In this document: piece after piece, positions 1-63,516 of the stretch
How the letters are laid out: every line of letters begins with the position of its first letter
Position numbering within the stretch: the first letter of the stretch is position 1
Assembly (NCBI RefSeq): GCF_029953595.1
Contig: NZ_CP124535.1
Span: 2,140,001-2,204,000 of the forward strand
Length of the DNA stretch: 64,000 nucleotides
Direction: 5' to 3'
Source: Fuscovulum ytuae
GTDB lineage: Bacteria; Pseudomonadota; Alphaproteobacteria; Rhodobacterales; Rhodobacteraceae
Program-made: the position numbers and the translations under genes
Notes under the pieces: generated by a model
Databases searched by the model: none
What the model saw: the letters and a program-made list of their open reading frames with translations, nothing else
Told to the model about the DNA's origin: nothing

Positions 1-237
1 TGTCCGATGCAGCGGGATTACCCGCCCATCCACCACCAGCGCGCCGGGTTCCAAAGTGACGGTCCCGCGCCAAGGCCCGAAGACGCTGTCATATTCAAAG
101 AGATAGGCACACATCTCCGCCCCGGCGATGTCGTTGATGCCCACAATCTCCAGCCCCGGCCAGCGCGCCGGGGTCTGCAAGGCCGCCCGCAGCACCGACC
201 GCCCGATCCGCCCAAACCCGTTGATGAAGACGCGCAT
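1..237 (-). CDS. gap: Glyceraldehyde-3-phosphate dehydrogenase, N-terminal part (cut by window edge)
   Basis: The first 79 codons are present; the rest lies beyond base 1. The protein opens with the Rossmann NAD-binding signature GFGRIGR (residues 7-13), then INDIAGAEM and FEYDSVFGPWRG, which match the GAPDH family pattern of adenine-ribose-binding Asp and substrate-loop start. The family oxidises glyceraldehyde 3-phosphate to 1,3-bisphosphoglycerate in the cytosol. The catalytic Cys is outside the window, so an erythrose-4-phosphate dehydrogenase-like paralogue cannot be excluded. The start is the ATG at 237. The gene lies downstream of bhcD on the same strand, separated by 202 bases with two hairpins, so co-transcription is uncertain. 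Confidence 0.85.
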   Translation of the reverse strand, partial: MRVFINGFGRIGRSVLRAALQTPARWPGLEIVGINDIAGAEMCAYLFEYDSVFGPWRGTVTLEPGALVVDGRVIPLHRT

Positions 238-439: not shown

Positions 440-1399
440 CTAGACCGACACCTCCACCCCCAGCCCGCGCTCCCGCGCGCGCTGTACGGCCACCGCCGCC
501 ACCGCAAGGTCCTGCAACCCAACACCCGTCCCGTCAAACAGCGTGATCTCCGCTTCCGACCGCCGCCCGGCATCCGCACCCGTCAGCACCGCCCCAAGCG
601 GCACGATATCGGCATCCGATACCATCCCCGCCGCCACCGCATGCTGCGCCTCGCCGATGCTCACCGATTGCGCCACCTCGTCGGTGAAAAGCCGCGCCTT
701 GCCAACCAGCGCAGGCTGAACTTCCTGCTTGCCTTTCGTATCGGTCCCCATGCAGGCCAGATGCGTTCCCGGCGACACATGCGCCGCCATCAGCGATGCC
801 GCTGGCGACGATGTGATCGTGATGATGGCCTCCGCCTCCACCATCCGCTCCAACCCCACCGCCTCGAAAGGCAGCCCCAGTTCCGCGGCCACCTCCGCAA
901 GTTTCGGCAGCATCTCGGGATGCAGGTTCCACGCGATCACGCGCTCCCACTTCCGCACCCGCACCGCCGCGCGCAGCTGGAACCCCGCCTGATGCCCCGC
1001 CCCCACGATGCCCAGAACCCGCGCATCCTTCCGCGCCAGACGGTCGATGGACAAAGCCGAAGCCGCCGCCGTCCGCAGCGCGGTCAGAAGGTTGCCCCCG
1101 ACCATCGCCACAGGCCGCCCCGTATCGGGGTCAAAGAGATAGACCGTCGACTGATGGTTGGTGATCCCACGCGCCATATTGCCGGGGAAATACCCCCCCG
1201 CCTTGACGCCCAACATCCCCCCCGCCCGGTCAAGACCCGACTTGAACCCGTATTGCCGCCCTTCACCCAGCGCCTCGCGCACCACGGGAAAGTTATAGGC
1301 CTCGCCCCGCGCCATCGCGGCAAAGGTGGCGGCCACGGCCTCATAGGCATCCTCAGGCGAAACGAGGTCGGCGATCAGCGCCTCGGGAACGATCAGCAT
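440..1399 (-). CDS. bhcD: Iminosuccinate reductase BhcD (ornithine cyclodeaminase/mu-crystallin family)
   Basis: This is the last enzyme of the beta-hydroxyaspartate cycle: it reduces iminosuccinate with NAD(P)H to L-aspartate, regenerating the amino donor. The 319-residue protein has the family's Rossmann motif GAGHQAGF at about 133-140, a Lys in GVKAGG near 66 and the conserved RTAA segment near 109. The fold alone would suggest ornithine cyclodeaminase or alanine dehydrogenase. The bhcD call rests on its place directly behind bhcA, bhcB and bhcC. The ATG at 1399 has AAGGA about 6 bases upstream. It is separated from bhcC by 72 bases with a GC-rich hairpin. Confidence 0.9.
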   Translation of the reverse strand: MLIVPEALIADLVSPEDAYEAVAATFAAMARGEAYNFPVVREALGEGRQYGFKSGLDRAGGMLGVKAGGYFPGNMARGITNHQSTVYLFDPDTGRPVAMVGGNLLTALRTAAASALSIDRLARKDARVLGIVGAGHQAGFQLRAAVRVRKWERVIAWNLHPEMLPKLAEVAAELGLPFEAVGLERMVEAEAIITITSSPAASLMAAHVSPGTHLACMGTDTKGKQEVQPALVGKARLFTDEVAQSVSIGEAQHAVAAGMVSDADIVPLGAVLTGADAGRRSEAEITLFDGTGVGLQDLAVAAVAVQRARERGLGVEVSV

Positions 1400-1435
1400 C
1401 GCATATCCTTGCAGGGTAACTTCATTCCGTGGCGC

Positions 1436-1459
1436 GCGGGGGGAGGCAACGCCCCCCGC
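1436..1459 (-). other. Intercistronic GC hairpin, bhcC-bhcD
   Basis: Inverted arms of 8 bases (1436-1443 and 1452-1459; GCGGGGGG/CCCCCCGC) with an 8-base loop lie in the 72-base bhcC-bhcD gap. There is no T-run, so a processing or stability element that tunes bhcD relative to the upstream genes is likelier than a terminator. This is inferred from position only. Confidence 0.5.
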
Positions 1460-1471
1460 ACCCCCTTTTCC

Positions 1472-2635
1472 TCAATAGGCTTTGCCGCGGGCCGAGACGG
1501 GCCAGACCACCTCGACCTTGCCGTTCCGCACACCCACATACCAATCGTGGACGTTGCAGGTGGGATCGCAATGCCCCGGCACCAGCCGCAGCTTGTCATT
1601 CACCTTCAACACGCCTTCCGGATCATCGATCACGCCATGCTCGTCGCTGCACTTGATGTATTTCACATCCGTCCGGCCAAAGATCACCGGCAGCCCGCTA
1701 TCCACCGACTGGGCCTTCAGCCCCGCATCGCAGATCGCCCGATCCGCCTTGGCATGGCTCATGACCGAGGTCAGGATGAACAGCGCATTCTCCCATTCCC
1801 CCTGATCGATCCGCTTGCCGTCCTTGTCCAGGATGCGTCCGTAATCCGCATCCATAAAGGCATAGGACCCACATTGCAGCTCGTTATAGACCCCTGAATT
1901 CCCTTCGAAATAATAGGATCCCGTGCCGCCGCCGCCGACGATGTCGCATTCAAGGCCCTCACCTTTCAACGCCTCGACCGCGTCGCGCACCATGGCCACC
2001 GCGATGTCGATCTTGGCCTTGCGGTCCTCATAGCGGTCCATGTGCTGCATCGCACCCTGATAGGCCTGAATGCCCGCGAATTTCAGCCCCGGCGCCGCAT
2101 CAATGGCCTTGGCCAGGTCCACCACAGCGGGCGTCGTCGTCACGCCACAACGCCCCGCGCCGCAGTCAATCTCCACCAGACATTCGATGGTCGTCCCATG
2201 CTTCACCGCCGCCGCCGACAGGTCGGCCACATTGGCCAGATCATCGACGCAGCAGATCGCCCGCGCGCCCAATTTCGGGATACGCGCCAGACGGTCGATC
2301 TTGGCCGGATCGCGCACCTGATTGCTGACCAGCACATCCTTGATCCCGCCCCGCGCAAAGACCTCGGCCTCGCTCACCTTCTGGCAGCAGACGCCAATGG
2401 ACCCGCCCAACCGTTCCTGCAACAGCGCCACATCCACCGATTTATGCATTTTCCCATGCACCCGGTGCCGCACGCCCATTTCGCGGGCAAAGCGCCCCAT
2501 CTTCTCGATGTTCCGCTCCAGCGCATCCAGATCCAGCACAAGGCAAGGCGTCTGGATGTCCTTCTCATCCATCCCCGGCAGCGCTGGGATGTCATAGCCC
2601 ACTTCCAACCCGTCCAGTTTCACCTGCGCGTTCAT
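1472..2635 (-). CDS. bhcC: Beta-hydroxyaspartate aldolase BhcC (D-threonine aldolase-like)
   Basis: Joins glycine and glyoxylate to (2R,3S)-beta-hydroxyaspartate, the carbon-carbon bond-forming step of the cycle. The 387-residue protein has the fold-III PLP (alanine racemase-like) layout. It shows HGKMHKS near 60-66 with the probable PLP Lys62, the phosphate-binding GGGGTGSYY segment in the second half, and a C-terminal metal-binding PGHCDPTCNVHDW segment typical of D-threonine aldolase/D-serine dehydratase-type enzymes. The ATG at 2635 lies 4 bases after the bhcB stop, indicating translational coupling. By sequence alone 3-hydroxy-D-aspartate aldolase would be an equally good name. Confidence 0.92.
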   Translation of the reverse strand: MNAQVKLDGLEVGYDIPALPGMDEKDIQTPCLVLDLDALERNIEKMGRFAREMGVRHRVHGKMHKSVDVALLQERLGGSIGVCCQKVSEAEVFARGGIKDVLVSNQVRDPAKIDRLARIPKLGARAICCVDDLANVADLSAAAVKHGTTIECLVEIDCGAGRCGVTTTPAVVDLAKAIDAAPGLKFAGIQAYQGAMQHMDRYEDRKAKIDIAVAMVRDAVEALKGEGLECDIVGGGGTGSYYFEGNSGVYNELQCGSYAFMDADYGRILDKDGKRIDQGEWENALFILTSVMSHAKADRAICDAGLKAQSVDSGLPVIFGRTDVKYIKCSDEHGVIDDPEGVLKVNDKLRLVPGHCDPTCNVHDWYVGVRNGKVEVVWPVSARGKAY

Positions 2636-2639
2636 ATCC

Positions 2640-3602
2640 TTACCCTTTCATCCAAGGCAGCTTGTCCAGATCCACATTCCCGCCGGTCAGGATCACCCCG
2701 ACCCGCTTGCCCCGGAACCGATCCGGGTTCTTCAGGATCACCGCCAGCGGCACCGAACAGCTGGCCTCGATCACGATTTTCATCCGCTTCCAATGCAGCT
2801 TCATCGCCTCGACGATCTCATCCTCCGTCGCAGTCAGCACGTCGGTCGCGTAGGTCTTCACAAAATGCCATGTCAGTTCCTTGAGCGGCACCTTCAACCC
2901 GTCCGCCACCGTATCCGGCGCGTCATCGGCGATGATATGCCCCGCCCGGAAACTGCGCGCCGCGTCATCGGCATTCACGGGTTCGGCAGCGAAAATCTCC
3001 ACCTGCGGCGCAATGGCCGACAGCGTCAGGCAGGTGCCGGAAATCATCCCACCCCCACCGATGGGCGCCACCACAGCATCCAGCCCGTCCACCTGCTCCA
3101 TCAACTCGCGCGAACAGGTGCCCTGTCCCGCAATCACGCGCGGGTCGTTATAGGGATGCACGAAATCCGCTCCCGTCCGCGCCTGCACTTCGGCAAACAC
3201 CGCCTCACGGCTGCTGGTCGACGGTTCGCATTCCACGATCACTCCGCCATAGCCTCGCACCGCATCCTTCTTGGCCTGCGGTGCCGTCCGCGGCATCACC
3301 ACCGTGCAAGGAATGCCCCGCCGCCCCGCCGCATAGGACAGAGACAGCGCATGGTTCCCGCTCGAATGCGTGGCAACACCCCGCTCCAGTTGATCGTCCC
3401 GCAGGCCAAAGACGGCATTCGACGCCCCCCGCACCTTGAACGCCCCGGCCTTCTGGAAGTTCTCGCATTTAAAGAAAAGCTCCGCCCCCGTCAGCTCGTT
3501 CAGGAAGCTGGAGGTCAGAACCGGCGTCCGATGGATATAAGGCGCGATCCGCGCATGGGCCGCCAGCACATCGTCATAAGTCGGTATCACCATCTCCACC
3601 AT
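2640..3602 (-). CDS. bhcB: Beta-hydroxyaspartate dehydratase BhcB (threonine/serine dehydratase fold)
   Basis: Removes water from (2R,3S)-beta-hydroxyaspartate to give iminosuccinate, which BhcD reduces. It is a PLP fold-II enzyme of about 320 residues. The Schiff-base Lys is in GAFKVRGA near 56, a glycine-rich phosphate loop IGGGGMISGT sits in the middle and TGGN near the C-terminus. I chose the ATG at 3602 (MVEMVIPTYDD), which has GGAGG 14 bases upstream; the ATG at 3623 (MEAALRD, no visible Shine-Dalgarno) is the alternative and would add 7 residues. It follows bhcA after a short gap with a hairpin and runs into bhcC. Confidence 0.9.
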   Translation of the reverse strand: MVEMVIPTYDDVLAAHARIAPYIHRTPVLTSSFLNELTGAELFFKCENFQKAGAFKVRGASNAVFGLRDDQLERGVATHSSGNHALSLSYAAGRRGIPCTVVMPRTAPQAKKDAVRGYGGVIVECEPSTSSREAVFAEVQARTGADFVHPYNDPRVIAGQGTCSRELMEQVDGLDAVVAPIGGGGMISGTCLTLSAIAPQVEIFAAEPVNADDAARSFRAGHIIADDAPDTVADGLKVPLKELTWHFVKTYATDVLTATEDEIVEAMKLHWKRMKIVIEASCSVPLAVILKNPDRFRGKRVGVILTGGNVDLDKLPWMKG

Positions 3603-3649
3603 GTCGCGCAACGCCGCCTCCATTTTCTGTCTGAAAATATCCCGTTGGG

Positions 3650-3667
3650 CCGGGGGCTTGCCCCCGG
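3650..3667 (-). other. Intercistronic GC hairpin, bhcA-bhcB
   Basis: A perfect palindrome with 8-base arms CCGGGGGC/GCCCCCGG and a 2-base loop lies 14 bases after the bhcA stop. Read on the minus strand it is followed by GATATTTTC, which resembles the hairpin-plus-TATTTT layout of the 3' elements elsewhere in this window. Because bhcB follows directly, partial termination or mRNA processing that sets the bhcA:bhcBCD ratio is the likely role (inference). Confidence 0.5.
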
Positions 3668-3681
3668 TCCCACGGGTTCCA

Positions 3682-4872
3682 TCATTCCGCCGCCATCGCC
3701 ATCGGCACCGCCGACCCGCGATAGAAATCCGCCGCCGCCGCCACGCCCGATCCCAGCCGCACGTTCCAGCCCAGATCGGCCATGCACATCTCCGCCGTGG
3801 CAAGGCCACCCAGCACCATCACATCCGTCAACATCCCCAGATGCCCGATGCGGAACACTTTGCCCGCCACTTCGCCCAGCCCCACACCGAAAGCCACGCC
3901 ATACTTTTCCGCGGCCAGCTTCACGAGGTCGGTGCCATTGCACCCCGCAGGCACCACCACCGCCGTCACCGTCTCGGAATAAAGGTCGGGCGAGGCCGCG
4001 CAGGGCCGCATTCCCCAAGCCGCCACCGCGCGCCGCACCCCTTCGGCCAGCCGCGCATGCCGGGCATAGACCGCCTCCAGCCCCTCGTCCTCCAGCATCT
4101 CGATGGATTTCGCGAGCCCCGCGATCAACCCCACCGATGGCGTGTAGGGATAGCCTCCCCCGGCATAGCTTTTCAGCATGTCGCGGAAGTCGAAAAAGGT
4201 CCGCGGCAGCCGTGCCCCGTCCATCGCCGCCAGCGCCTTGTCCGACACCCCAAGGATCGCCAGCCCGGCAGGCAGCATGAATCCCTTCTGGCTGCCCGCC
4301 ACGGCGATATCCACGCCCCAAGCGGCCATCTCGAATGGCATCGACCCAATCGACGACACGCCGTCGACAAAAAGCATCGCCTCATGCCCCGCCGCATCCA
4401 TCGCGCGCCGGATGCCCGCAATATCCGACCGAACCCCCGTCGCCGTCTCGTTATGCGTGGCCAGCACCGCCTTGATCCGTCCGCCCGTATCGGCGCGCAA
4501 CGCCGCCTCGATGGCCGCCACAGGCGCACCCTGCCCCCAAGGCGTTTCGATGATCTCCACCTCCAGCCCATGGCGCTGGCACAAATCGATCCAGCGATGG
4601 CTGAACATCCCGAACCGCGCCGCCAACACCCGGTCACCGGGCGACAGCGTGTTGCTAATCGCGGCTTCCCAGCCACCCGTCCCGGTCGACGGCAGGATGA
4701 TCACCTCACCCCCCGCCATCCCCAGCACGCGCCGGACCCCCGCCACCGCCGGACGGAACAGCTTGCCAAAGGCCGCTGACCGATGATCCAGCGTAGGCAT
4801 GTCACAGGCCTTGCGAATCTCCTCTGGAATATTCGTCGGGCCGGGAATGAAGACGGGATTCTGGAAGGACAT
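3682..4872 (-). CDS. bhcA: L-aspartate:glyoxylate aminotransferase BhcA (class V)
   Basis: Transfers the amino group of aspartate to glyoxylate, giving oxaloacetate (the cycle's product) and glycine for BhcC. The 396-residue class V aminotransferase begins with MSFQNPVFIPGPTNIP. It has STGTGGWEA near 62-70 for PLP phosphate contact, an Asp in LFVDGVSSIG (Asp170) and the PLP Lys in AGSQKGF (Lys196). The ATG at 4872 has a strong AGAGGTGG Shine-Dalgarno; a longer frame to 4902 lacks one. It is the first gene of the bhcABCD unit, opposite bhcR. Serine-glyoxylate aminotransferase is the nearest alternative, excluded by context. Confidence 0.93.
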   Translation of the reverse strand: MSFQNPVFIPGPTNIPEEIRKACDMPTLDHRSAAFGKLFRPAVAGVRRVLGMAGGEVIILPSTGTGGWEAAISNTLSPGDRVLAARFGMFSHRWIDLCQRHGLEVEIIETPWGQGAPVAAIEAALRADTGGRIKAVLATHNETATGVRSDIAGIRRAMDAAGHEAMLFVDGVSSIGSMPFEMAAWGVDIAVAGSQKGFMLPAGLAILGVSDKALAAMDGARLPRTFFDFRDMLKSYAGGGYPYTPSVGLIAGLAKSIEMLEDEGLEAVYARHARLAEGVRRAVAAWGMRPCAASPDLYSETVTAVVVPAGCNGTDLVKLAAEKYGVAFGVGLGEVAGKVFRIGHLGMLTDVMVLGGLATAEMCMADLGWNVRLGSGVAAAADFYRGSAVPMAMAAE

Positions 4873-5023
4873 GGCGACCACCTCTCTTGGGCATGGCGGC
4901 ACCCTACGCCCTCCCTCGCCGCATCACAATTTTTTCGAAAACATTTTTCAACAAACGAAAAATGCTCTATCCTCTTTCCAAATCAGAGACTTGCGCTTTT
5001 TCACCCCAAACGGACCCGCTCAA
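4873..5023. promoter_or_regulatory. bhcA/bhcR divergent promoter region with paired palindromes
   Basis: This is a 151-base intergenic stretch with an AT-rich middle. It holds the palindrome TTTTCGAAAA (4932-4941) and, one base on, an inverted repeat with 8-base arms CATTTTTC (4942-4949) and GAAAAATG (4957-4964) around a 7-base spacer. IclR-family proteins bind such palindromes between the regulator gene and its target operon. The placement therefore suggests the BhcR operator, probably glyoxylate-responsive as described for Paracoccus. No promoter hexamers are claimed. Confidence 0.6.
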
Positions 5024-5839
5024 ATGCCCACAAAACCTCGCGGCCGCCCCAAGGCCTTCCACGACAAGACCGACCAAAACACGGTGCAGGCACTCGACCG
5101 CGCGCTTGGCCTGCTCTCCACCCTTGCCAATCATCCGGGCCTCACGCTGTCGGAACTCGCCGAAACCTCCGGTCAGGCCGTCGCCACGGTCTACCGCGCC
5201 CTCATCACGCTGCAATCCCACGGGATGGTCGAATCCGAAGACCCCGCTCAGGTCTGGCATATCGGCCCGGGTGCCTTCCGCGTGGGTTCCGCCTTCCTGC
5301 GCCGGACCAAGGTCGTCGAACGCGCCCGCGCCGCGATGGATGCCTTGATGCGGGACACGGGCGAAACCGCAAATCTCGGGGTCGAGGTGGGGGATGAGGT
5401 CCTCTTCCTCTCCCAAGTCGAAACCCATCAGGCCATCCGTGCTTTCTTCCCCCCCGGCACCATTGCGCCCATGCATGTCTCTGGCATCGGCAAGGCCCTG
5501 CTCGCTTGGTATCCGGAAGAGAAGGTGAAAGGTATCCTTGCCCGCAAGGGGTTGGAACGCTTCACCACCCTCACCCACACTTCCGAAACCGCCCTCCTGC
5601 GCGATCTGTCCCGCACGCGCGACCGTGGCTTCGCCATCGATGATCAGGAACGCGCCGAAGGCATGCGCTGCGTCGCCGCCCCCATCTTCAACGCCCATGG
5701 CGAACCCGTCGCGGGCCTCTCGGTCAGCGGCCCGGCCTTCCGCATGGGCCTCTCAGATGCGACGCGCCTCGGCGCCCTCGTCCGCGCCGCAGCAGACAAG
5801 GTGACCGAAGCCACGGGTGGTCAGCAGCCCACGCCCTAA
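5024..5839 (+). CDS. bhcR: IclR-family regulator of the beta-hydroxyaspartate cycle, BhcR
   Basis: The 271-residue protein has an N-terminal winged helix-turn-helix (about 20-85, recognition segment TVYRALITL near 56) and a C-terminal IclR effector domain containing GPAFRMG near the end. In Paracoccus the homologous protein controls the adjacent bhcABCD operon in response to glyoxylate; the same divergent layout is seen here. I chose the ATG at 5024 because the N-terminus MPTKPRGRPKAF is typical and leaves the palindromes at 4932-4964 upstream. An in-frame start at 4799 would run back into bhcA. It is convergent with the patB-like gene. Confidence 0.9.
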   Translation: MPTKPRGRPKAFHDKTDQNTVQALDRALGLLSTLANHPGLTLSELAETSGQAVATVYRALITLQSHGMVESEDPAQVWHIGPGAFRVGSAFLRRTKVVERARAAMDALMRDTGETANLGVEVGDEVLFLSQVETHQAIRAFFPPGTIAPMHVSGIGKALLAWYPEEKVKGILARKGLERFTTLTHTSETALLRDLSRTRDRGFAIDDQERAEGMRCVAAPIFNAHGEPVAGLSVSGPAFRMGLSDATRLGALVRAAADKVTEATGGQQPTP

Positions 5840-5842
5840 GCC

Positions 5843-5955
5843 CTTCATCTTGGCAATAAATACTCGCGGGGGAGGGCGCGCAAAGCGCGTCCGGGGGCGG
5901 CAGCCCCCCTCCCTTCTGACGGGGCGAAGTCCCCGGCAGAAGGGCAAAGGAATGC
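5843..5955 (-). terminator. 3' region of patB-like gene: hairpins plus dispersed 3' element (copy 1)
   Basis: Read from the patB-like stop (minus strand), the order is: a GCATTCCTTTGCC motif (5955-5943); a strong hairpin with arms CCCTTCTG/CAGAAGGG (5911-5918, 5937-5944) and inner GGGG/CCCC; a second hairpin GGGGGC/GCCCCC (5893-5898, 5903-5908); then the dispersed element TATTT(A)TTGCCAAGATG (5865-5843). The layout suggests a transcript end between the convergent patB-like and bhcR genes. Four further copies of the element lie downstream of other genes in this window. Confidence 0.6.
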
Positions 5956-5983
5956 CGCGGCACGCGGCGCCGCTCAATAACCG

Positions 5984-7156
5984 CTATTGCAGATCGCGGA
6001 ACGCCGCCTGCATGCGCTCCACCGCCTCCACCACCATCGCGCGCGGGGCAGCGATGTTGAACCGCAGGAAGGTCTCTCCCCCCGGCCCAAAGCTCGCGCC
6101 ATGATTGGTGGCAATCCGCGCCTCCTTCTCCACCCGCCCGATGAATTCCGCAGGTGCCATCCCGGTGCCCGAAAAATCCAGCCATGCCAGATAGGTCGCC
6201 TCCAGCGGCATGGATCGCAGGCCCGGTATCCCCGCCATGCCCGCATCAAACACCCGCCGGTTCCCCTCCAGATAGGCCATCAGCGCATCCACCCACTCCG
6301 CCCCTTCGGGCGAATAGGCCGCCGTCGCCATATGCATCCCGAAACTATTGCCCGAAATGCCAAGGGCCATGATCTTCGCCGCAAACTTCGCCTTCAGCGC
6401 GGGGTCCGCGATGATCACATTCCCCGTATGGCTGCCCGCGATGTTGAAGGTCTTCGTCGTCGCGGTCATCATCACCAGACGGTCCGCAATCTCTGGCGCG
6501 GCCAGCGTCATCGGCACATGCCGCTGCCCCGGATAGACCAGATCATGGTGGATCTCGTCCGATACCAAAATCAGATCATGCCGCACGCAGAAATCGGCGA
6601 CCCCGCGCAGCTCCGCCTCCGTCCAGACCCGCCCGCCCGGATTGTGGGGCGAGCAGAGGATGAACATCCGCTCCCGCCCCGTCATCAGCCCGTCCCAGGC
6701 GTCAAAATCCATCTCATAGCGCCCATCGACCAAGGCAAGCGGACAATCCCGCACCTCGCGCCCCGCCGCTTTGATCGTGCGGGCAAAGGCGTGATAGACA
6801 GGCGTCGTCAGCACGACCGCATCCCCGGGCGCGGTAAAGGCCTCAAGGCAAAGCCCCGTCCCGTTCACAAGACCATGCGTGGTAAAGATGTCCCCCGCCG
6901 CCACGTTCCAGCCATGGCGCGTCTTCATCCACCACTGGATCGCCTCCAGATAGGCGCGGTCATCCCCGAAATAGCCATAGATGCCATGCGCCGCCAACCG
7001 TTCTACCGCCTGCTGGACGATGGCGGGCGGCCGGAACTCCATATCCGCCACCCACATGGCAAGCCCCTCCGACGCCGGAACGCCGTAAAGCTTCTCCATC
7101 ATGTCCCATTTCACGCAATGGGTGCCGATGCGGTTGATCGGGGTGTCAAAGTCCAT
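5984..7156 (-). CDS. patB: PatB/MalY-type C-S lyase (cystathionine beta-lyase family)
   Basis: A PLP fold-I enzyme of 390 residues in the MalY/PatB subgroup, predicted to cleave cystathionine or related cysteine S-conjugates to a thiol, pyruvate and ammonia. It shows WVADMEF near 35-41, PHNPGGR near 170, SDEIHHDL (199-206) and the PLP Lys in TATTKTFN (Lys235), all subgroup hallmarks. The ATG at 7156 has AGAGGG a few bases upstream; the longer frame to 7183 has a less typical N-terminus. It stands alone and is divergent from def. The exact substrate cannot be told from sequence. Confidence 0.85.
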   Translation of the reverse strand: MDFDTPINRIGTHCVKWDMMEKLYGVPASEGLAMWVADMEFRPPAIVQQAVERLAAHGIYGYFGDDRAYLEAIQWWMKTRHGWNVAAGDIFTTHGLVNGTGLCLEAFTAPGDAVVLTTPVYHAFARTIKAAGREVRDCPLALVDGRYEMDFDAWDGLMTGRERMFILCSPHNPGGRVWTEAELRGVADFCVRHDLILVSDEIHHDLVYPGQRHVPMTLAAPEIADRLVMMTATTKTFNIAGSHTGNVIIADPALKAKFAAKIMALGISGNSFGMHMATAAYSPEGAEWVDALMAYLEGNRRVFDAGMAGIPGLRSMPLEATYLAWLDFSGTGMAPAEFIGRVEKEARIATNHGASFGPGGETFLRFNIAAPRAMVVEAVERMQAAFRDLQ

Positions 7157-7378
7157 ATCCGCCCTCTGGTCCTGCTGCCGCAATCAGGAATATCAAGTCA
7201 GAACATACGTTCCAATCGGGAAATTGATGCCGATACAATGTTCTGCCCTCAACCATTTACCTAGCATTTTGTCCCACTTTTTTGCAAATTTTCAGAATAC
7301 TATCCCAAATCATTCAGCAAACCCACCACCCCTGTCCCGCCATTGCACCCATAGGGCTTTTTCCGCTATCGACAGCAC
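7157..7378. promoter_or_regulatory. Divergent promoter region, patB-like gene/def
   Basis: A 222-base intergenic region, clearly more AT-rich than its surroundings (several T-runs around 7257-7300). It must carry promoters for both the patB-like gene and the def-def2-fmt unit. I see no operator-like palindrome and do not assign hexamers. Confidence 0.4.
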
Positions 7379-7903
7379 ATGATCCGCCCCATCCTGATCC
7401 ATCCCGACCCGCGCCTCAAGAAACTCTGCGACCCCGTCGCCGAGATCACACCCGACATGGGCAAACTGGCCGAAGACATGCTCCAGACGATGTATGATGC
7501 CCCCGGCATCGGCCTCGCCGCACCACAGGTCGGGATCACCAAACGCCTTATCGTCATGGATTGCGTCAAAGCTGAGAATGAGGCCCCCCGCCCCCTCGTC
7601 CTCTTCAACCCCGAAGTCACCTGGGCGTCCGAAGAGCTGTCGACCTATGACGAAGGCTGCCTCTCTATCCCCGATCAATATGCCGAAGTGCAGCGCCCAG
7701 CCGAGGTGCGCGTCCGCTGGATGGGTCTCGACGGCAAGTCGCAAGAGGAACAGTTCTCCGGTCTCTGGGCCACCTGCGTCCAGCACGAGATCGACCACCT
7801 GAACGGCAAACTCTTCATCGATTACTTGGGTCCGCTGAAACGCCAGCTCATCACCCGCAAGATGGAGAAACTGAAACGCGAACGCGCGCGGCAGGGCGGA
7901 TGA
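7379..7903 (+). CDS. def: Peptide deformylase
   Basis: Removes the N-formyl group from nascent proteins. The 174-residue protein has all three catalytic motifs intact: GIGLAAPQVG (43-52), EGCLS (92-96, metal ligand Cys94) and QHEIDH (135-140, ligands His136 and His140, catalytic Glu137). It is first in a unit with a second deformylase-like gene and fmt, overlapping the former by 4 bases (ATGA). This is the usual def-fmt linkage, with the formyl group added by Fmt and removed by Def. Confidence 0.97.
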   Translation: MIRPILIHPDPRLKKLCDPVAEITPDMGKLAEDMLQTMYDAPGIGLAAPQVGITKRLIVMDCVKAENEAPRPLVLFNPEVTWASEELSTYDEGCLSIPDQYAEVQRPAEVRVRWMGLDGKSQEEQFSGLWATCVQHEIDHLNGKLFIDYLGPLKRQLITRKMEKLKRERARQGG

Positions 7904-8403
7904 CGGTCCGCCCCTGCCTGCCATGGCCCCATCCGGCGCTAAAGACCCCCGCCGCGACGGTGGATGCCATCACGGATGACATCCGCGCCATCTGGGCCGA
8001 CATGATCGACACGATGGATGCCATGCCCGGCTACGGCCTTGCCGCCGTGCAAATCGGCATTCCCTTGCGCCTCGCCGTCGTGGATTGCTCCGACGAACGC
8101 GGTCAGGCCATTCGCATGGCCAATCCCGAAATCCTCCATGCCAGCGTCCAACCCCGCACGCATGAGGAAGCCTCGCCCAACCTTCCCGGCGTCTCGGCCG
8201 TGATCGAACGCCCCCGCGCCGTCACCGTCCGCTTCCTGAACGAAAAGGGCGAAATGGAAGACCGCGACTTCGTCCATCTCTGGGCGACCTCGGTCCAGCA
8301 TCAGATCGACCATCTGGCGGGCAAGATGTATTTCGACCATCTCTCCCCCCTGAAACGCAAAATGCTGATCGCCAAGGCGGAAAAGCTGCGGAGGCGTGGG
8401 TGA
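7900..8403 (+). CDS. Peptide deformylase-like protein lacking catalytic residues
   Basis: The 167-residue protein clearly belongs to the deformylase fold: [10 protein letters not shown] (44-53), an EASPNLPGV segment where EGCLS is expected, and QHQIDHL (133-139). The metal-ligand Cys is replaced (Ser92 at the aligned place) and the catalytic Glu is Gln135, while both His ligands remain. Normal deformylase activity is therefore unlikely. It is translationally coupled on both sides (ATGA with def, GTGA with fmt), so it is kept in the operon and not decaying. A regulatory, binding or altered catalytic role is possible; none can be assigned. Confidence 0.88.
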
Positions 8404-9296
8404 AAATCGTTTTCATGGGCACGCCGGACTTTTCCGTCCCCGTCCTTCAGGCCCTCGCCGCGCGGCACCAGATCGTTGCCGTCTACACCCAACCCCCGCG
8501 CCCCGCAGGCCGGGGCAAGGACCTGCGCCCCACCCCCGTCCATGCTGCCGCCGCTGCGCTGGGCCTTCCCGTCCGCCACCCCACAAGCCTGAAATCCCCA
8601 GAAGAACAGACGGCCTTCGCCGCGCTTGATGCCGATGTCGCCGTCGTTGTCGCCTATGGCCTGATCCTGCCGCAAGCCATCCTCGATGCCCCCCGCGCAG
8701 GCTGCCTCAACATCCACGCCTCGCTCCTGCCCCGCTGGCGTGGCGCGGCCCCCATCCACCGCGCCATCATGGCGGGCGATGCCGAAACCGGCATCTGCAT
8801 CATGCAGATGGAAGCGGGCCTCGACACCGGCCCCGTCCTTCTGCGCGAGGCCACCCCAATCGGCCCCGAAGAAACCACCCAAGACCTGCATGACCGCCTG
8901 TCGCAGATCGGCGCGCGCCTGATCCTTCAGGCGCTCGACCGCTTGCCCACCCTCACCCCTGAACCACAGCCCACTGAGGGCGTCACCTACGCCGCCAAAA
9001 TTGACAAGGCTGAGTCGCGAATTGATTGGTCCCGTCCCGCGGCCGAGATTGACCGCCAGATCCGCGCCCTTTCCCCCTTCCCCGGCGCATGGTGCATGGG
9101 CGGCACGGAACGGATCAAACTCCTCCGGTCCCGGCTTGCCAAAGGCTCAGGCACCCCCGGCACCGTCCTTCCCGGCCTGAGCATCGCCTGCGGCACAGGG
9201 GCCATCGCCATCACCCTTGCCCAGCGCGAGGGGAAAAAGGCCCAATCGCCGCAAGATTTTCTGAACGGCTTCTCCCTCCCCGACCGACTGGACTGA
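8400..9296 (+). CDS. fmt: Methionyl-tRNA formyltransferase
   Basis: Formylates initiator Met-tRNA using 10-formyl-tetrahydrofolate. The 298-residue protein starts [16 protein letters not shown] and carries the catalytic set Asn104, His106 ([12 protein letters not shown]) and Asp142 (GLDTGP), followed by a smaller C-terminal tRNA-binding domain. The start is GTG at 8400, overlapping the stop of the deformylase-like gene (GTGA). Length and motifs are normal for the family. Confidence 0.97.
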
Positions 9297-9339
9297 CGGC
9301 ACAACCTGCGCCACACTCTTCCGCAGATCGGAGGAACCC

Positions 9340-9576
9340 ATGCCCGTCCTCATCCTCATTGTCATCGGGGCCGCCGCAGGCTTCCTCGCCACCCGCTTCA
9401 TGCGCGTGCAGACCGACGTGCCCACCACCATCGCCATCGGCATCGGGGGCGCACTTGTGGGCTGGGGCATCCTTCGCTTTCTCGTCTCGGTCACCGGATG
9501 GGTCGCAGCCTTTGTCGGCGCCGTGCTAGGGGCGGTCCTCCTCATCTGGCTCTGGCAGAAATACGTCTCGCGCTGA
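9340..9576 (+). CDS. Small membrane protein, GlsB/YeaQ/YmgE-like
   Basis: A 78-residue, almost entirely hydrophobic protein with three predicted membrane segments (about 2-16, 26-48 and 50-72). Gly-rich stretches (GAAAGFLATRFM, GIGGALVGWG) resemble transglycosylase-associated (GlsB/YeaQ) proteins, whose function is unclear. A good Shine-Dalgarno (GGAGGA) sits about 6 bases before the ATG. It follows fmt after 43 bases and may be read through from it. Confidence 0.65.
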   Translation: MPVLILIVIGAAAGFLATRFMRVQTDVPTTIAIGIGGALVGWGILRFLVSVTGWVAAFVGAVLGAVLLIWLWQKYVSR

Positions 9577-9601
9577 CCGTCTCGCGCTGACGGGCGTCGC
9601 G

Positions 9602-10084
9602 CTAACCGATCCGCTTCACCGCATCGCGCAACCGGAACCCCGCGCCCCCGGCACCGGACCAAAGCATCCGCCCCTGCCAGGCCGCAAAGATCATCGCCGC
9701 CGCCTCGGCCTTGCACCCGGCCTTGCGCGCAACCGACGCTTCCACCTCCGCGCGCCACGCCGCCGCCCGCGCCGCCACCACCTCATCCCCCAAGGACGCC
9801 CAGATCAGCGCCCCCCGCAGCGCAGCGCCCAGCGCCTTCAAAAACCCCTGCGCGCTGGCCTCTGCCGTATCTGCCGCGCGCGTCGCCGCCTCCACCCCGT
9901 CCCAACCATGGATCAGCGCCCCGCGCAGCATCCCCTCCCGGTCGCCATAGCGCTGCACCAAAGAGGGCGGCGCAAGGCCAACCGCCGCCGAGACCAGGCC
10001 AAAGGACACCTGCCCCCGCGCCTCCAACATCTCCAAGACGGCATCGAAAATAACGGCATCGGGAATGGAACGCGGTCGGGCCAT
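9602..10084 (-). CDS. TetR/AcrR-family transcriptional regulator
   Basis: The 160-residue protein has an N-terminal helix-turn-helix (about residues 10-55; ARPRSIPDAVIFDAV and the recognition segment PPSLVQRYGDREGML) and an Ala-rich helical effector domain. The ATG at 10084 has AGGA 6 bases upstream; a frame start at 10111 would only add 9 atypical residues. The target is unknown. It is downstream of the TRIC-type channel gene on the same strand and convergent with the small membrane protein. Confidence 0.75.
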   Translation of the reverse strand: MARPRSIPDAVIFDAVLEMLEARGQVSFGLVSAAVGLAPPSLVQRYGDREGMLRGALIHGWDGVEAATRAADTAEASAQGFLKALGAALRGALIWASLGDEVVAARAAAWRAEVEASVARKAGCKAEAAAMIFAAWQGRMLWSGAGGAGFRLRDAVKRIG

Positions 10085-10145
10085 GTCATATCCTGAACGA
10101 TCATTCGCCAACCAGCCTGCGCCAGCCGCGCCCGCCGATCAACCC

Positions 10146-10811
10146 CTATCGCTTCGGCGATCCGGGCTTCGGCGGCCGCGCCCGATAGACCGGCAGACGC
10201 CAGCCGAACCCAAGGCTTCCCGCCCGCAGGACCAGCGTCACCCCCCCACAGGCCAGCAGCGCCTGCCACACCTCCACCCCGGCCAGACCCAGCAGCACCG
10301 CCACTCCCGCCCCGCAAAAGGCGCAGGTCACGTAAAGCTCGCCCTGCTTCAACACCAACGGCACTTCGTTGCAGACCACGTCTCGCATCAATCCGCCCAT
10401 GCAGCCCGTGACCATTCCCATCACCAGCACGACAGGCCAGCCAAGACCTTCCGCAAAGGCCACCCCCACCCCCGCCGGCACCGCCACGGCAAGCGCCAGC
10501 GCATCCAGCCATTCAATCGCGCGATATCGGCTTTCCAGAAGATGCGCCCCGAAAAACACCAAAACCGCCGCCAAGGTCGCCACCGCCAGAAGCGCCGGGT
10601 CCCCGATCCAGACCGGCGGCCGCCCAAGGATCACATCCCTCAGCGTGCCCCCGCCCACCGCCGTCAGACAGGCGATGAAGATGAACCCCACGATATCCAG
10701 TTGCGAGCGGCTCGCCACCAAGGCCCCAGTCAGGGCAAAGACCGCGACCGAGGCATAATCCAGCACCGGAAGGATCGTCGCCACCGATGCCTCCAGCCCC
10801 GGTGCGATCAT
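10146..10811 (-). CDS. TRIC-type (YicG/UPF0126) cation channel family membrane protein
   Basis: A 221-residue protein with seven likely membrane helices and the two internal repeats of the bacterial TRIC/UPF0126 family. Each repeat bears the GGxxRD signature: [14 protein letters not shown] in the first and [13 protein letters not shown] in the second. Bacterial TRIC homologues form trimeric monovalent cation channels; the physiological role here is unknown. Its ATG overlaps the rnhA stop by 4 bases. Confidence 0.85.
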
Positions 10812-27988: not shown

Positions 27989-28939
27989 ATGATCCGCGTT
28001 GAACCCCGAATCGCAGACCCCGACCATGGCGGCGGCATAGATGCCGCCACTGCCCGCTGGGGTGGCACGCGCGCCGATTGGCTTGACCTGTCCACCGGCA
28101 TCAACCCGCGTCCCTACCCGATCCCGGCCCTTCCCGACGATGCATGGACCGCGCTCCCCGACCGCAAAGCCTTCGCCGCGCTGGAGAAGGCCGCCCGCCG
28201 CTTCTGGGCCATCCCCGACGCTGCCGCCCTCATCGCCGCCCCCGGCGCCTCGGCGCTCATCGCCCGCATCCCGGCCGTGCTGGCCCCGGCAAACGTGGCC
28301 ATCCCCGCCCCCACCTATAACGAACACGCCCGCGCCTTCCGCGCCTGTGGCTGGACCGTCACCGATGACGCCACCGAAGCGCGCGTCATCGTCCACCCCA
28401 ACAACCCCGATGGCCGCCTTCACCCCGCCCCTGACACCCCTTTCGCGGTCATCGACGAAAGCTTCTGCGACGTCACCCCCGACGCCAGCCACATCGCGCA
28501 GGCCGCCCGCCCCGGCACCCTGATCCTGAAAAGCTTTGGCAAATTCTGGGGCCTCGCGGGGGCCCGCTTGGGCTTTGCCATCGGCGACCCCGCGCTGATT
28601 GACAGGCTGAAACCGATGATCGGCCCTTGGGCCGTCCCCGGCCCCACGCTCGCCATCGCCACCGCCGCGCTGAACGATCCCGCATGGGCCGATGCCACCC
28701 GCACCCGCCTTGCCACCGATGCCCGGCGGCTTGACGACCTCATGGCCGCCGCTGGAACCACCCCCCTTGGCGGCACCACCCTCTTCCGCCTTTACGACAC
28801 CGAAGATGCCGCCGCCTGGCAAGACCGCCTCGCGCGTCACCGCATCCTGTCCCGCATCTTCCCCTATTCCACCCGCTGGCTGCGCCTCGGCCTGCCCGAT
28901 GGCGCGGGCTGGGACCGCCTCGCACAGGCCTTGGCATGA
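27989..28939 (+). CDS. cobC: Threonine-phosphate decarboxylase (cobalamin aminopropanol arm)
   Basis: Decarboxylates L-threonine phosphate to (R)-1-amino-2-propanol phosphate, the linker of the cobalamin lower ligand. It is a PLP fold-I enzyme of about 316 residues, with [14 protein letters not shown] near the start, [16 protein letters not shown], the VIDESFCD motif and the PLP Lys in [17 protein letters not shown]. The symbol follows Pseudomonas denitrificans usage (cobD in Salmonella). The ATG at 27989 is preferred over GTG at 27953; neither has a clear ribosome-binding site. It overlaps cbiB by 4 bases. Confidence 0.9.
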
Positions 28940-60133: not shown

Positions 60134-62323
60134 ATGATGCAGACCGAACCCCTTCCCCTCGTTCAGGATATCGTCCTCATCGGCGGCGGGCACGCCCATG
60201 CGCTCGTCCTCCGGATGTGGGCGATGGACCCGATCCCCGGCCTCCGCCTGACCTTGATCGATCCCAACCCCATCGCGCCCTATACGGGCATGTTGCCGGG
60301 TCACATCGCGGGCCATTACCGTCGGGATGAGATCATGATCGATCTTGTCCGCCTCGCCCGCTTTGCCGGCGCAAGGCTGATCCTCGACCGCGCCACCGGC
60401 ATCGACACCGCCACCCGCCGCATCCATCTGGCAAACCGCCCCCCGCTGCGCTTCGATATCGCCTCGGTCGATATCGGCATCGGGTCGGGCCTTCCTGGCC
60501 TGCCGGGGTTCACCGACCATGCCGCCGCCGCCAAACCCTTGGGCGATTACGCCCAAAGGTGGGAGGCCTTTCTCACCACCGCCCCCTCCAGCCCCGCCCT
60601 CACCCTGATCGGCGCCGGGATCGGCGGGGTGGAACTGGCGCTCGCCTCCGCGCACCGCCTGCGGATGACAGGCCGCACCCCCCGCATCACGCTGCTAGAA
60701 CGGGCGGACAGCGCGCTCCCCAACATAGGCCCCCGCGCCCGCGCCACCCTCCTCAACCGCCTCGCCGCCGAAGGCATCGCGCTCCGCACCGCCACCACCG
60801 CTACCGCCATCGGCCCCGATCATGTGATCCTCTCCGACGGCACACGCCTTGCGTCCGACTTTACCCTCTCCATCGCAGGCACCCAACCGCAGGGCTGGCT
60901 GACAGAGACAGGCCTTTCCCTCCATGACGGTTTCCTCGCCGTCGGCCCCACACTGCAAACCTCCGATCCTGCGATCTTCGCCGCGGGCGATTGCGCCCAT
61001 CTCAGCCATGCCCCCCGCCCCAAGGCCGGGGTCTATGCCGTCCGCGCCGCACCGATCCTTCTGCACAACCTGCGCGCCTTGGCCACGGGCCAACCGCTGC
61101 GCCCCTTCCACCCCCAGCGCGATTACCTCAAGCTCGTCTCCCTCGGCGGGAAAGAGGCCGTGGCCGATAAGTTCGGCCTCCGCTCCGGCGGCCGGGCGCT
61201 GTGGTGGCTGAAAGACCGGATCGACCGCGCCTTCATGGCGAAATTCGACACCTACCCCCAGATGCCCCGCCCCCTCCCCGACCCCGCCCCCTTGGGGCTG
61301 ATCGAGGCGATGGGCCCCAAACCCCTTTGCGGTGGCTGCGGGGCCAAGGTCGGCCCCGGCGCACTCGCCGCAACCCTCGCCACCCTGCCGAAACCCTCCC
61401 GCTCCGATGTCATCGCAGGCGCGGGCGACGATGCTGCCATCCTGCGCCACGGGCAGGGCGCGCAAGTCATCACCACCGATCACCTCCGCGCCTCTTGCGC
61501 CGATGCCCGCCTCATGGCCCGCATCACCGCCATCCATGCCATGGGCGATATCTGGGCCATGGGGGCCGCCCCACAGGCCGCGCTCGTACAGATCACGCTC
61601 CCCCGCCTCTCCCCCGCCCTGCAATCCGACATGCTGGCTGAAATCATGGAAGAAGCCGCCAGCCTCTTCACCGCCGAAGGCGCCGCGATCATTGGCGGCC
61701 ATAGCAGCATCGGCGCCGAACTCACCATCGGCTTCACCCTCACAGGCCTCACCGACCAACCCATCACCAAAGGCGGCGCCCGCCCCGGCGACGCGCTGCT
61801 CCTGACGAAACCCTTGGGGTCCGGCACGCTCATGGCCGCCGACATGGCCCTCGCGCGCCTGCCCAAAGATCTCCTTGGCCCCCATGTCGCCGCCGCTTGG
61901 GCCGCCATGTCCCGCCCGCAAGGCAAGGCCGCCCGCCTCCTCGCGCCCCATGCCCATGCCATGACCGACATCACCGGCTTCGGCCTCGCCGGCCACCTGC
62001 TCGAGATGATGGAGGCCTCCGCCACCGCCGCCACCATCGATCTCGCTGCCCTCCCCCTCCTGCCGGGGGCAGAGGCACTGGCCGCACAAGGCATCGCCTC
62101 CACAATCGCCCCCGCCAATCACGCCGCAACCGCCGCCCGCCTCACCGCCCCAGACACGGCCCGCACGGCCCTGCTCTTCGACCCCCAGACCGCAGGGCCC
62201 CTCCTCGCGGCCCTTCCCCCCGATCAGGCCAAGGCCACCCTCGCCGCCCTCCACGCCATAGGCGAACCTGCCACGATCATCGGCCATGTCACCGAAGGCC
62301 CCCCACATCTGACCGCGCGTTAA
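60134..62323 (+). CDS. selD: SelD fused to an N-terminal NADH-dehydrogenase-like flavoprotein domain
   Basis: The 729-residue fusion has a pyridine-nucleotide-disulfide oxidoreductase domain at about 1-380 (VLIGGGHAHALVLRM, TLIGAGIGGVELALASAHRL, PAIFAAGDCAHL). The C-terminal selenophosphate synthetase domain spans about 395-729 (CGGCGAKVGPGALA, GAGDDAAIL, HAMGDIWAMGA, GGHSSIG, HAMTDITGFGLAGHLLEM). SelD makes selenophosphate from selenide and ATP. The catalytic Cys/Lys pair is kept in CGGCGAK. The fused domain may deliver reduced selenium. It is convergent with mnmH, its likely client; translation starts at ATG 60134 or 60137. Confidence 0.93.
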   Translation: MMQTEPLPLVQDIVLIGGGHAHALVLRMWAMDPIPGLRLTLIDPNPIAPYTGMLPGHIAGHYRRDEIMIDLVRLARFAGARLILDRATGIDTATRRIHLANRPPLRFDIASVDIGIGSGLPGLPGFTDHAAAAKPLGDYAQRWEAFLTTAPSSPALTLIGAGIGGVELALASAHRLRMTGRTPRITLLERADSALPNIGPRARATLLNRLAAEGIALRTATTATAIGPDHVILSDGTRLASDFTLSIAGTQPQGWLTETGLSLHDGFLAVGPTLQTSDPAIFAAGDCAHLSHAPRPKAGVYAVRAAPILLHNLRALATGQPLRPFHPQRDYLKLVSLGGKEAVADKFGLRSGGRALWWLKDRIDRAFMAKFDTYPQMPRPLPDPAPLGLIEAMGPKPLCGGCGAKVGPGALAATLATLPKPSRSDVIAGAGDDAAILRHGQGAQVITTDHLRASCADARLMARITAIHAMGDIWAMGAAPQAALVQITLPRLSPALQSDMLAEIMEEAASLFTAEGAAIIGGHSSIGAELTIGFTLTGLTDQPITKGGARPGDALLLTKPLGSGTLMAADMALARLPKDLLGPHVAAAWAAMSRPQGKAARLLAPHAHAMTDITGFGLAGHLLEMMEASATAATIDLAALPLLPGAEALAAQGIASTIAPANHAATAARLTAPDTARTALLFDPQTAGPLLAALPPDQAKATLAALHAIGEPATIIGHVTEGPPHLTAR

Positions 62324-62340
62324 GGGCAACCGTCGAAAGA

Positions 62341-62397
62341 TTGAGTATTTTTGCCAAGATGAAGACCAACCCCCTTCATCTTGGCAAAAATACTCAA
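62341..62397. terminator. Perfect 24-bp inverted repeat of the dispersed 3' element (copies 4 and 5)
   Basis: Arms 62341-62364 and 62374-62397 are exact reverse complements over 24 bases, with a 9-base spacer; each arm is one copy of the element with core TATTTTTGCCAAGATG. It lies between convergent selD and mnmH. Read from mnmH it is preceded by a perfect hairpin GCGCCGCGC/GCGCGGCGC (62447-62455, 62461-62469), a GGCAAAGGGAATGC motif (62435-62448) and a T-run. It could act as a two-way transcription terminator. Confidence 0.7.
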
Positions 62398-62475
62398 AAA
62401 ACCCGCAGCCAAGCGGCGAAGGCCGCGCAGGCGAGGCAAAGGGAATGCGCCGCGCTCTTCGCGCGGCGCTCCGCA

Positions 62476-63516
62476 TCACAACCCGGCCACCGCCTCCGCG
62501 ACCCGGTCGGCAATGGCGCCCGGATCGCCCAACCCGTCCACCGCCACTTCAGTGAAAGGCACAGCCATTCGCGCCCGATGCTTGCCATAGCGCGGGTCGT
62601 AATGCCGCGCCATCAGCCCCTCGGCCAGATCGACGAACTGCCCCGCTGCCACCATCGCCCGCCATTCCGCGATCACCTCGCGCGGATGGGCCAGTGCCAA
62701 GGACGCCACCACCCCATCCAGCCGCGCCGCATCCGCCACCAGATCGGCATAGGCACCCAGCAGATATTCCGCCCGCGCGCGCCGCGGCGCCTCTATGGCG
62801 ACCCGCGGCGCTTCCACCATCGCCCGCCATAGTTTCGGCGGCAGGCGGCACTCCCCCACCTTGGCGCTCTCTGCCTCCACCACCACAGGTCGCGCCGGAT
62901 CAAGCCGCGCCAAGGCCAGCGCCAACCGCCCCTCAAAGGCCTTCTGCGACGGCTGCGCCCCCATGGACCCGAACAAAGACCCGCGATGGTTCGCCAAGCC
63001 TTCCAGATCAACCACCTGCACGCCCCGCGCGGGCAACAGGTTCAACACTTCAGTCTTGGCCGACCCGGTATTCCCGTCCAGCACCACCAACCGAAAGGGG
63101 AAGGTGTCGGTATAAAGCGCATCCACCACCAGCCGCCGCCACGCCTTATAGCCGCCCTGCACCACCTCCACCCGCCAGCCGATCTGCGCCAAGATAGAGG
63201 CGAAGGACCCCGACCGCTGCCCCCCGCGCCAGCAATAGACCAAGGGCCGCCACCCGCCCGGCTTCTCGGCCAAAGGCCCCTCCAGATGCGCCGCCGCATT
63301 CTTTGCCACCAGCGCCGCGCCAATCTTGCGCGCCGAAAACGGGCTTGCCTGCTTGTAGATCGTCCCCACCCGCGCCCGTTCCGCATCGTCCAGCACCGGC
63401 AGCGAAACCGCCCCCGGTACATGATCCTCTGCCCATTCCGACGGCGACCGCACATCGATGATCGTGTCGAAATCCAGCGCCAGCACATCCGCCAGCGACC
63501 GCAACTGAACCGCCAT
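62476..63516 (-). CDS. mnmH: tRNA 2-selenouridine synthase
   Basis: Replaces sulfur by selenium at the wobble s2U34 of tRNAs for Lys, Glu and Gln, using selenophosphate from SelD. The 346-residue protein has an N-terminal rhodanese domain (DVRSPSEWAEDHVPGA; catalytic Cys95 in VYCWRGGQRSGS) and a P-loop domain with VVLDGNTGSAKTEVL and an ANHRGSLFG motif. The start codon overlaps the argE stop by one base (TGATG). It is also known as selU or ybbB. Confidence 0.95.
   Translation of the reverse strand: MAVQLRSLADVLALDFDTIIDVRSPSEWAEDHVPGAVSLPVLDDAERARVGTIYKQASPFSARKIGAALVAKNAAAHLEGPLAEKPGGWRPLVYCWRGGQRSGSFASILAQIGWRVEVVQGGYKAWRRLVVDALYTDTFPFRLVVLDGNTGSAKTEVLNLLPARGVQVVDLEGLANHRGSLFGSMGAQPSQKAFEGRLALALARLDPARPVVVEAESAKVGECRLPPKLWRAMVEAPRVAIEAPRRARAEYLLGAYADLVADAARLDGVVASLALAHPREVIAEWRAMVAAGQFVDLAEGLMARHYDPRYGKHRARMAVPFTEVAVDGLGDPGAIADRVAEAVAGL

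Follow-up and report, generated by a model that had tools for sequence, protein, structure and literature searches.

A beta-hydroxyaspartate cycle operon of Fuscovulum ytuae adjoins purine-breakdown genes and is probably also their last module

We have analyzed a 64,000-nucleotide stretch of the Fuscovulum ytuae genome (RefSeq assembly GCF_029953595.1, contig NZ_CP124535.1, forward-strand positions 2,140,001 to 2,204,000), referred to below as the window. Positions 440-5839 hold the bhcRABCD operon of the beta-hydroxyaspartate cycle (BHAC). Taken alone, the operon is well supported and an ordinary example of a system already known. Our addition is a gene-neighborhood tie between this cycle and purine catabolism, seen in this genome, in a large part of its family and in one strain of Paracoccus denitrificans. 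We hold with good confidence that the locus is a BHAC operon which, in this genome and many of its relatives, would also form the last module of purine breakdown.

The key features of the locus are summarized in Table 1. The initial annotation had read the five frames as bhcR divergent from bhcA-bhcB-bhcC-bhcD, and they lie exactly so, each scoring above the curated cut-off of its NCBIfam equivalog model. The matches are full length, and given this and their strength they are not chance. The Pfam families found (Aminotran_5, PALP, Ala_racemase_N with D-ser_dehydrat, OCD_Mu_crystall and IclR) agree with the enzyme folds and the IclR-type regulator described in that annotation. Its remark that by family name alone each gene would be called something else no longer holds, as all five are now covered by named NCBIfam models. 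The best matches in the PDB are 6rqa, an iminosuccinate reductase, for BhcD (E = 1.3e-121) and 6qkb, a D-3-hydroxyaspartate aldolase, for BhcC (E = 1.9e-209). Identities were calculated against the locus of P. denitrificans HAMBI_2443, in which BhcC matches the 6qkb chain at 100% identity. The alignment with the P. denitrificans proteins that had been named as a check gave 51.5-78.0% identity. All eight motifs compared in BhcA-D are the same as in P. denitrificans: GSQKG (BhcA), AFKVRG (BhcB), HGKMHKS and GHCDPTCNVHDW (BhcC), and GGGGM, GGGTGSYYF, GAGHQ and LRTAAAS. We take these to be catalytic residues of the enzyme families, namely the pyridoxal phosphate lysines, the metal site of the aldolase and the cofactor loop of the reductase. 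The curated-model scores, the identity to P. denitrificans and the unchanged enzyme motifs together support the assignment as bhcRABCD. The starts of bhcB, bhcA and bhcR were judged by homology and are all shorter than the longest open frames; the NF045641 match, for example, starts at residue 75 of the long bhcB frame.

Table 1. Features of the bhc locus, with positions in the window (ORF, open reading frame; identities are to P. denitrificans)
Feature	Position	Strand	Remarks
GAPDH-like gene, first part	1..237 (rest left of window; L112 6264-7277)	-	202 nt downstream of bhcD, co-directional
bhcD, iminosuccinate reductase	440..1399	-	NF045643 531 bits, cut-off 500; 62.9% identity
bhcC, beta-hydroxyaspartate aldolase	1472..2635	-	NF045642 769 bits, cut-off 690; 78.0% identity over 387 aa
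bhcB, beta-hydroxyaspartate dehydratase	2640..3593 (ORF open to 3809; homology start ~3593)	-	NF045641 602 bits, cut-off 550; 75.9% identity
bhcA, aspartate-glyoxylate aminotransferase	3682..4872 (ORF open to 4902; homology start ~4872)	-	NF045640 707 bits, cut-off 650; 64.6% identity
bhcR-bhcA divergent promoter region	4873..5023	.	151 bases between homology starts
AAAAAATTG box adjoining operator	4927..4935	-	shared upstream of bhcA
Predicted BhcR operator	4936..4950	-	one mismatch to TGAAAANNNTTTTCA; 63 nt upstream of bhcA
bhcR, IclR-type regulator	5024..5839 (ORF 4799-5839; homology start ~5024)	+	NF045644 408 bits, cut-off 350; 51.5% identity
PatB-family C-S lyase	5984-7183		adjoins bhcR; 384 bits, cut-off 340

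Beyond bhcD, the operon is followed in its own genome by a glyceraldehyde-3-phosphate dehydrogenase (GAPDH)-like gene and then by genes of purine breakdown. The GAPDH-like protein, a divergent fourth member of its family in this genome, scores 334 bits against the GAPDH-I model, under the cut-off of 367, and is the weakest of the four matches to PF02800, the C-terminal domain, in the genome (143 bits versus 204-226). It retains the Cys and His motifs, which we take to be significant in this enzyme. The allA gene converges on it, with five bases between the two stops. AllA is ureidoglycolate lyase, which frees glyoxylate in the last step of purine breakdown; the protein here matches PF04115 at 170 bits (cut-off 23), and its best NCBIfam model at 235 bits, under the cut-off of 260. 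Outward from allA on the same strand are a gene for allantoicase/ureidoglycine aminohydrolase (465 bits, cut-off 350) and one for PuuE allantoinase (508, cut-off 425) fused to a 2-oxo-4-hydroxy-4-carboxy-5-ureidoimidazoline (OHCU) decarboxylase (205, cut-off 96). Beyond puuE are 5-hydroxyisourate (HIU) hydrolase (131, cut-off 87), a LysR-type regulator and a membrane urate oxidase of the PuuD type (PF06181, 456, cut-off 27). Farther out, past about 13.6 kb of unscanned other genes, a BMP-type ABC transporter stands with XdhA (594, cut-off 467) and XdhB (1234, cut-off 850), the latter two about 28-31 kb from the end of bhcD. Xanthine dehydrogenase, urate oxidase, HIU hydrolase, OHCU decarboxylase, allantoinase, allantoicase/ureidoglycine aminohydrolase and ureidoglycolate lyase are thus all encoded near the operon, and together they cover the path from xanthine to glyoxylate.

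This proximity recurs across the family. BhcC is found above its cut-off in 29 of the 101 genomes nearest to this one, and at E ≤ 1e-190 in 138 of 295 genomes of the family (294 genera), 126 of them above the cut-off. At least 130 of the 138 also have AllA. The two genes lie within 5 kb in at least 33 of these 130 genomes, within 10 kb in at least 41 and within 20 kb in at least 44; the counts are lower bounds, as in 78 genomes only the AllA copies among the matches listed were used and in 67 of the 130 the copies used sit on different contigs. Among those matches, bhcC and allA are on opposite strands in all 44 pairs within 20 kb, and in 39 of the 41 pairs within 10 kb AllA is downstream of bhcC, converging from the bhcD side. 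Chance linkage would be about 0.7 under independence, which the relatedness of the genomes denies, and the binomial value is not used as a probability.

A census of neighbors was made on the best 80 of 583 bhc loci in public records, a sample biased to close relatives and with many metagenome-assembled members, by clustering all coding-looking frames into families. Apart from bhcRABCD, the families present in at least seven loci are GAPDH (20), AllA (19), PuuE-OHCU decarboxylase (18), ureidoglycine aminohydrolase (17), an NCS2 nucleobase symporter (11) and HIU hydrolase (9); behind them comes a family with 6 of 80. The GAPDH gene is co-directional after bhcD in all 20. Of the 80 loci, 28 have at least one purine gene or the symporter (26 if the symporter is not counted); among the 53 that span at least 13 kb the number is 21. 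PatB, the neighbor on the bhcR side in the window, is kept in just 4 of the 57 loci with enough sequence (L002-L005; locus numbers are ours). The arrangements vary: purine genes flank both sides of bhc in L120, L128 and L129, and lie on the bhcR side in L118 and L119. A quick, midpoint-rooted tree was built from the BhcA-D proteins of the window and 53 loci. A well-supported branch divides it, and on one side 20 of 36 rows have linked purine genes. For some of the unlinked rows the flanks are too short to decide, and L047 has a PuuE fragment at its edge. Two further results from the tree were set aside. A count of 11 changes between the linked and unlinked states is overstated, as some of the rows scored as having no purine gene have short flanks. 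P. denitrificans clusters with 23 rows from the linked side (support 95), on a long branch that makes the placement unsure.

Plasmids and secondary replicons present the same association. We examined ten such loci with complete bhcABCD and 9-12 kb flanks, chosen from two match lists and not at random, and eight of them have purine genes in the flanks. In Pseudosulfitobacter sp. DSM 107133 (L133, NZ_CP085155.1, 10358-11758) an NCS1 nucleobase symporter gene is inside the operon, between bhcC and bhcD, and in Defluviimonas an NCS1 symporter gene follows bhcD. AmiS/UreI-type transporters occur near bhc in two of the plasmid loci. In both Paracoccus sp. SMMA_5_TC and P. denitrificans HAMBI_2443, bhcD is succeeded by a co-directional run of genes for an NCS2 symporter, 8-oxoguanine deaminase, HIU hydrolase and urate hydroxylase, which begins 44 bases past bhcD in the former and 41 in the latter. 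The 1.73-Mb P. denitrificans record is unannotated there, and its genes were named by tblastn with proteins of the window and annotated Paracoccus proteins; the purine genes are 88-91% identical to the latter.

Three replicon loci differ from the complete set. On two conjugative plasmids of about 30 kb, from Phaeobacter and Roseovarius (L126, NZ_CP010680.1, and L127, NZ_CP020476.1, each at 5759-10164), bhcB and bhcC stand alone, with no bhcA, bhcD or bhcR within the 18-19 kb examined. Their neighbors are two RidA genes, a flavin adenine dinucleotide (FAD) oxidoreductase, a tripartite ATP-independent periplasmic (TRAP) transporter and mercury-resistance genes. These pairs could possibly serve hydroxyaspartate breakdown with RidA in place of the reductase step. 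In L137 (NZ_CP139708.1, 4879-6597) bhcR is unannotated, and just 78 residues match, beside an IS1380-family transposase gene. It seems that the regulator has been lost there and bhcABCD retained.

We also looked for other routes by which glyoxylate might be used. No glyoxylate carboligase was found at E ≤ 1e-190 in any of the 295 family genomes, with at most four first-look candidates scored per genome listed and a positive control in Escherichia coli. In the genome of F. ytuae itself lower-scoring relatives are present, the best of them with 337 bits against a cut-off of 711. A search of this genome found no isocitrate lyase above its cut-off, and it has malate synthase G and a crotonyl-CoA reductase-family gene, both above their cut-offs; from these three results acetyl-CoA is probably assimilated by the ethylmalonyl-CoA pathway.

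These results can be joined in a proposed scheme. BhcA would transfer the amino group of aspartate to glyoxylate, yielding glycine and oxaloacetate; BhcC would condense the glycine with a second glyoxylate, BhcB would dehydrate the product to iminosuccinate, and BhcD would reduce this to aspartate. The net result would be one oxaloacetate from two glyoxylate with no loss of CO2. BhcR would sense glyoxylate and control the divergent promoter. The nearby genes would process xanthine, urate, HIU, OHCU, allantoin, allantoate, ureidoglycine and ureidoglycolate in turn, and the glyoxylate released by AllA would be consumed by the adjoining bhc cycle, which is what would make it the last module of purine breakdown. 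The linked GAPDH-like enzyme may serve gluconeogenesis. The neighborhood and the logic of the pathways suggest that the two work together, and the cycle would most likely assimilate purine-derived glyoxylate as well; we infer from the sequences the enzyme activities, the flux between the pathways and what the GAPDH-like gene does. With rather less confidence, it seems probable that in a large group of Rhodobacterales the cycle is a carbon-saving end to purine breakdown, taking two rings to one oxaloacetate without glyoxylate carboligase. The cluster would then travel together, also on plasmids, and nucleobase transporters could join the bhc operon, apparently also in P. denitrificans, the species in which the cycle was originally elucidated.

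The report PMC11323563, cited throughout for the portions consulted, describes P. denitrificans BhcR as an activator of the operon whose binding in vitro is weakened by glyoxylate and strengthened by pyruvate. It further notes a palindrome upstream of the bhcA −35 region as a potential site and puts forward a two-site model. Mapping residues by eye on the IclR alignment, we find that all the oxygen-binding residues of the ligand pocket in its Table 1 (Gly160, Ile161, Asp212, Ser239 and Ser241) are kept in the window protein. By the same table BhcR is without the hydrophobic patch: Ala146 and Met220 are kept, and positions 143 and 154 are both Ala, compared with Thr and Ser in P. denitrificans. 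We then compared the region between bhcR and bhcA in the window with its counterparts in 67 other loci (n = 68). Allowing up to two mismatches, 61 of these regions contain the 15-base palindrome TGAAAANNNTTTTCA, compared with about one expected in mononucleotide shuffles, and in 54 such a site lies 58-65 nt upstream of bhcA. An AAAATTG core occurs within the last 75 nt before bhcA in 56 regions, and in 37 it is part of an exact AAAAAATTG, a box that is perhaps the −35 side of the bhcA promoter. A second copy of the predicted operator (at most two mismatches) is found more than 80 nt from bhcA in 35 regions. In 14 loci its spacing is 150-154 nt, and every one of these belongs to the unlinked side of the tree; it is 112-138 nt in 20 loci, of which those in the tree are all on the linked side, and 83 nt in one. 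A predicted operator so conserved, and so often doubled, fits the two-site idea for BhcR and offers concrete sites for that model of its action (PMC11323563).

Outside the bhcR-bhcA region the palindrome is rare, with just three sites of at most one mismatch in the 934,528 bases of the 80 loci, two of them inside bhcA. Two-mismatch sites occur at the start of a GlcF-looking frame in L110, between xanthine dehydrogenase and transporter genes in L114, and in the window at 28527. As a separate observation, the window has an exact match at 8401-8415, at the start of a frame that we take to be methionyl-tRNA formyltransferase-like (fmt-like), and this is probably due to chance.

A number of observations weigh against a part for the cycle in purine breakdown, or against that as its sole role. 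In the F. ytuae genome allA, the ureidoglycine gene and puuE are on the strand opposite to bhc, and therefore are not co-transcribed with it. Among the matches listed, bhcC and allA are not within 10 kb in 89 of the 130 genomes; the copies used are on different contigs in 67 of the 130. None of the 18 rows on the other side of the bhc tree has a purine gene in its flanks, and two of the ten replicon loci, those of Tateyamaria omphalii, where the GAPDH gene is present, and Paracoccus sp. Arc7-R13, have none in the stretch examined. The operator does not demonstrate shared control. No site with at most one mismatch is found at the purine, gap or glycolate-oxidase genes of the F. ytuae genome, on which ground a BhcR regulon reaching these genes was set aside, and the consensus is absent at up to two mismatches from the P. 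denitrificans HAMBI_2443 stretch. Malate synthase G could also take glyoxylate. Lastly, glycolate is likely to be a substrate of this organism too, given a GlcD-like gene at C1:3331137, though it scores below its cut-off; the next two frames resemble GlcE and GlcF by eye only. The initial annotation had predicted growth on C2 compounds, and the glycolate part of this has the GlcD-like gene in its favor, with a score of 432 bits against a cut-off of 568.

The same coupling might have another purpose. Purines could be mainly a source of nitrogen, with the cycle clearing glyoxylate as a by-product and not supporting growth on purine carbon. It is established that the purine pathway also makes ammonia and urea, and both the AmiS/UreI-type transporters near bhc on the two plasmids and the lack of glyoxylate carboligase at the threshold used in the family would suit such a role. 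It is inseparable by sequence from carbon assimilation, with which it overlaps, but the GAPDH gene adjoining bhc hints at gluconeogenesis. We regard nitrogen supply as the main purpose as possible, though tentative.

An operon for glycolate and glyoxylate only, as in marine Proteobacteria, with the purine genes kept beside it by shared ancestry, appears unlikely. The GlcD-like gene, the 18 unlinked rows of the tree and the lack of close operator matches at the purine genes would all be expected of it. Yet the linkage recurs in differing arrangements and on plasmids, while PatB has been kept in so few loci, and in some replicons nucleobase symporters are inside the operon or directly behind it. 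Finally, the bhcB-bhcC pairs beside RidA genes and an FAD oxidoreductase indicate that parts of the set may have other uses, but a shift of substrate here (to hydroxyaspartate or D-amino acid breakdown, for example) with no cycle is highly improbable when the window has all four enzymes and the regulator above equivalog cut-offs in the known order. A cycle that would also complete purine breakdown is the preferred reading.

Two other groups of genes in the window were noted. Positions 7379-9296 hold two tandem peptide-deformylase-like genes and then the fmt-like gene, names that we presume from the sequence. At 60134-63516 two frames resemble, by eye, selenophosphate synthase and tRNA 2-selenouridine synthase, and the pair suggests that the organism uses selenium.

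If the preferred reading is right, it would explain how family members with AllA and no detected glyoxylate carboligase assimilate glyoxylate. The recurrence of the linkage, to which one strain of the model species contributes, suggests that the cycle has a second natural substrate in the form of nucleobases, urate or allantoin. P. denitrificans bhc mutants have been described (PMC11323563), and the linkage predicts a purine phenotype for them. In the open-access literature the cycle is presented, in the portions consulted, as a route for glycolate, a major excretion product of algae, and ethylene glycol, and glyoxylate is noted as something that can come from purines and allantoin (PMC11323563). 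A link between bhc and purine genes is not reported in the consulted portions of the open-access papers searched, which included PMC11323563, PMC12214560, PMC11166783, PMC10878069 and PMC10499878; the founding 2019 Nature paper is outside that scope and may mention the neighborhood.

The closest known system is bhcRABCD of P. denitrificans, which has the same five genes in the same order with a divergent regulator, and in strain HAMBI_2443 the operon is also trailed by purine genes. The layouts differ. In F. ytuae puuE, the ureidoglycine gene and allA converge on the GAPDH-like gene after bhcD, whereas in HAMBI_2443 those for NCS2, oxoguanine deaminase, HIU hydrolase and PuuD are co-directional after bhcD. 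P. denitrificans is reported to have its own potential palindromic site (PMC11323563), although the operator consensus of the loci compared here is absent from its HAMBI_2443 stretch at up to two mismatches. The plasmid clusters of Pseudosulfitobacter, Leisingera, Defluviimonas, Sulfitobacter and Paracoccus have the same bhcABCD beside purine genes, although the arrangements differ. The allantoin/glyoxylate regulon of E. coli (AllR, gcl, allA) resembles the F. ytuae locus in its purine-derived glyoxylate, its IclR-type glyoxylate-responsive regulator and AllA, but there glyoxylate enters the glycerate route via glyoxylate carboligase with loss of CO2 (PMC11323563). The F. ytuae genome has no glyoxylate carboligase above the cut-off, and the bhc cycle could take its place.

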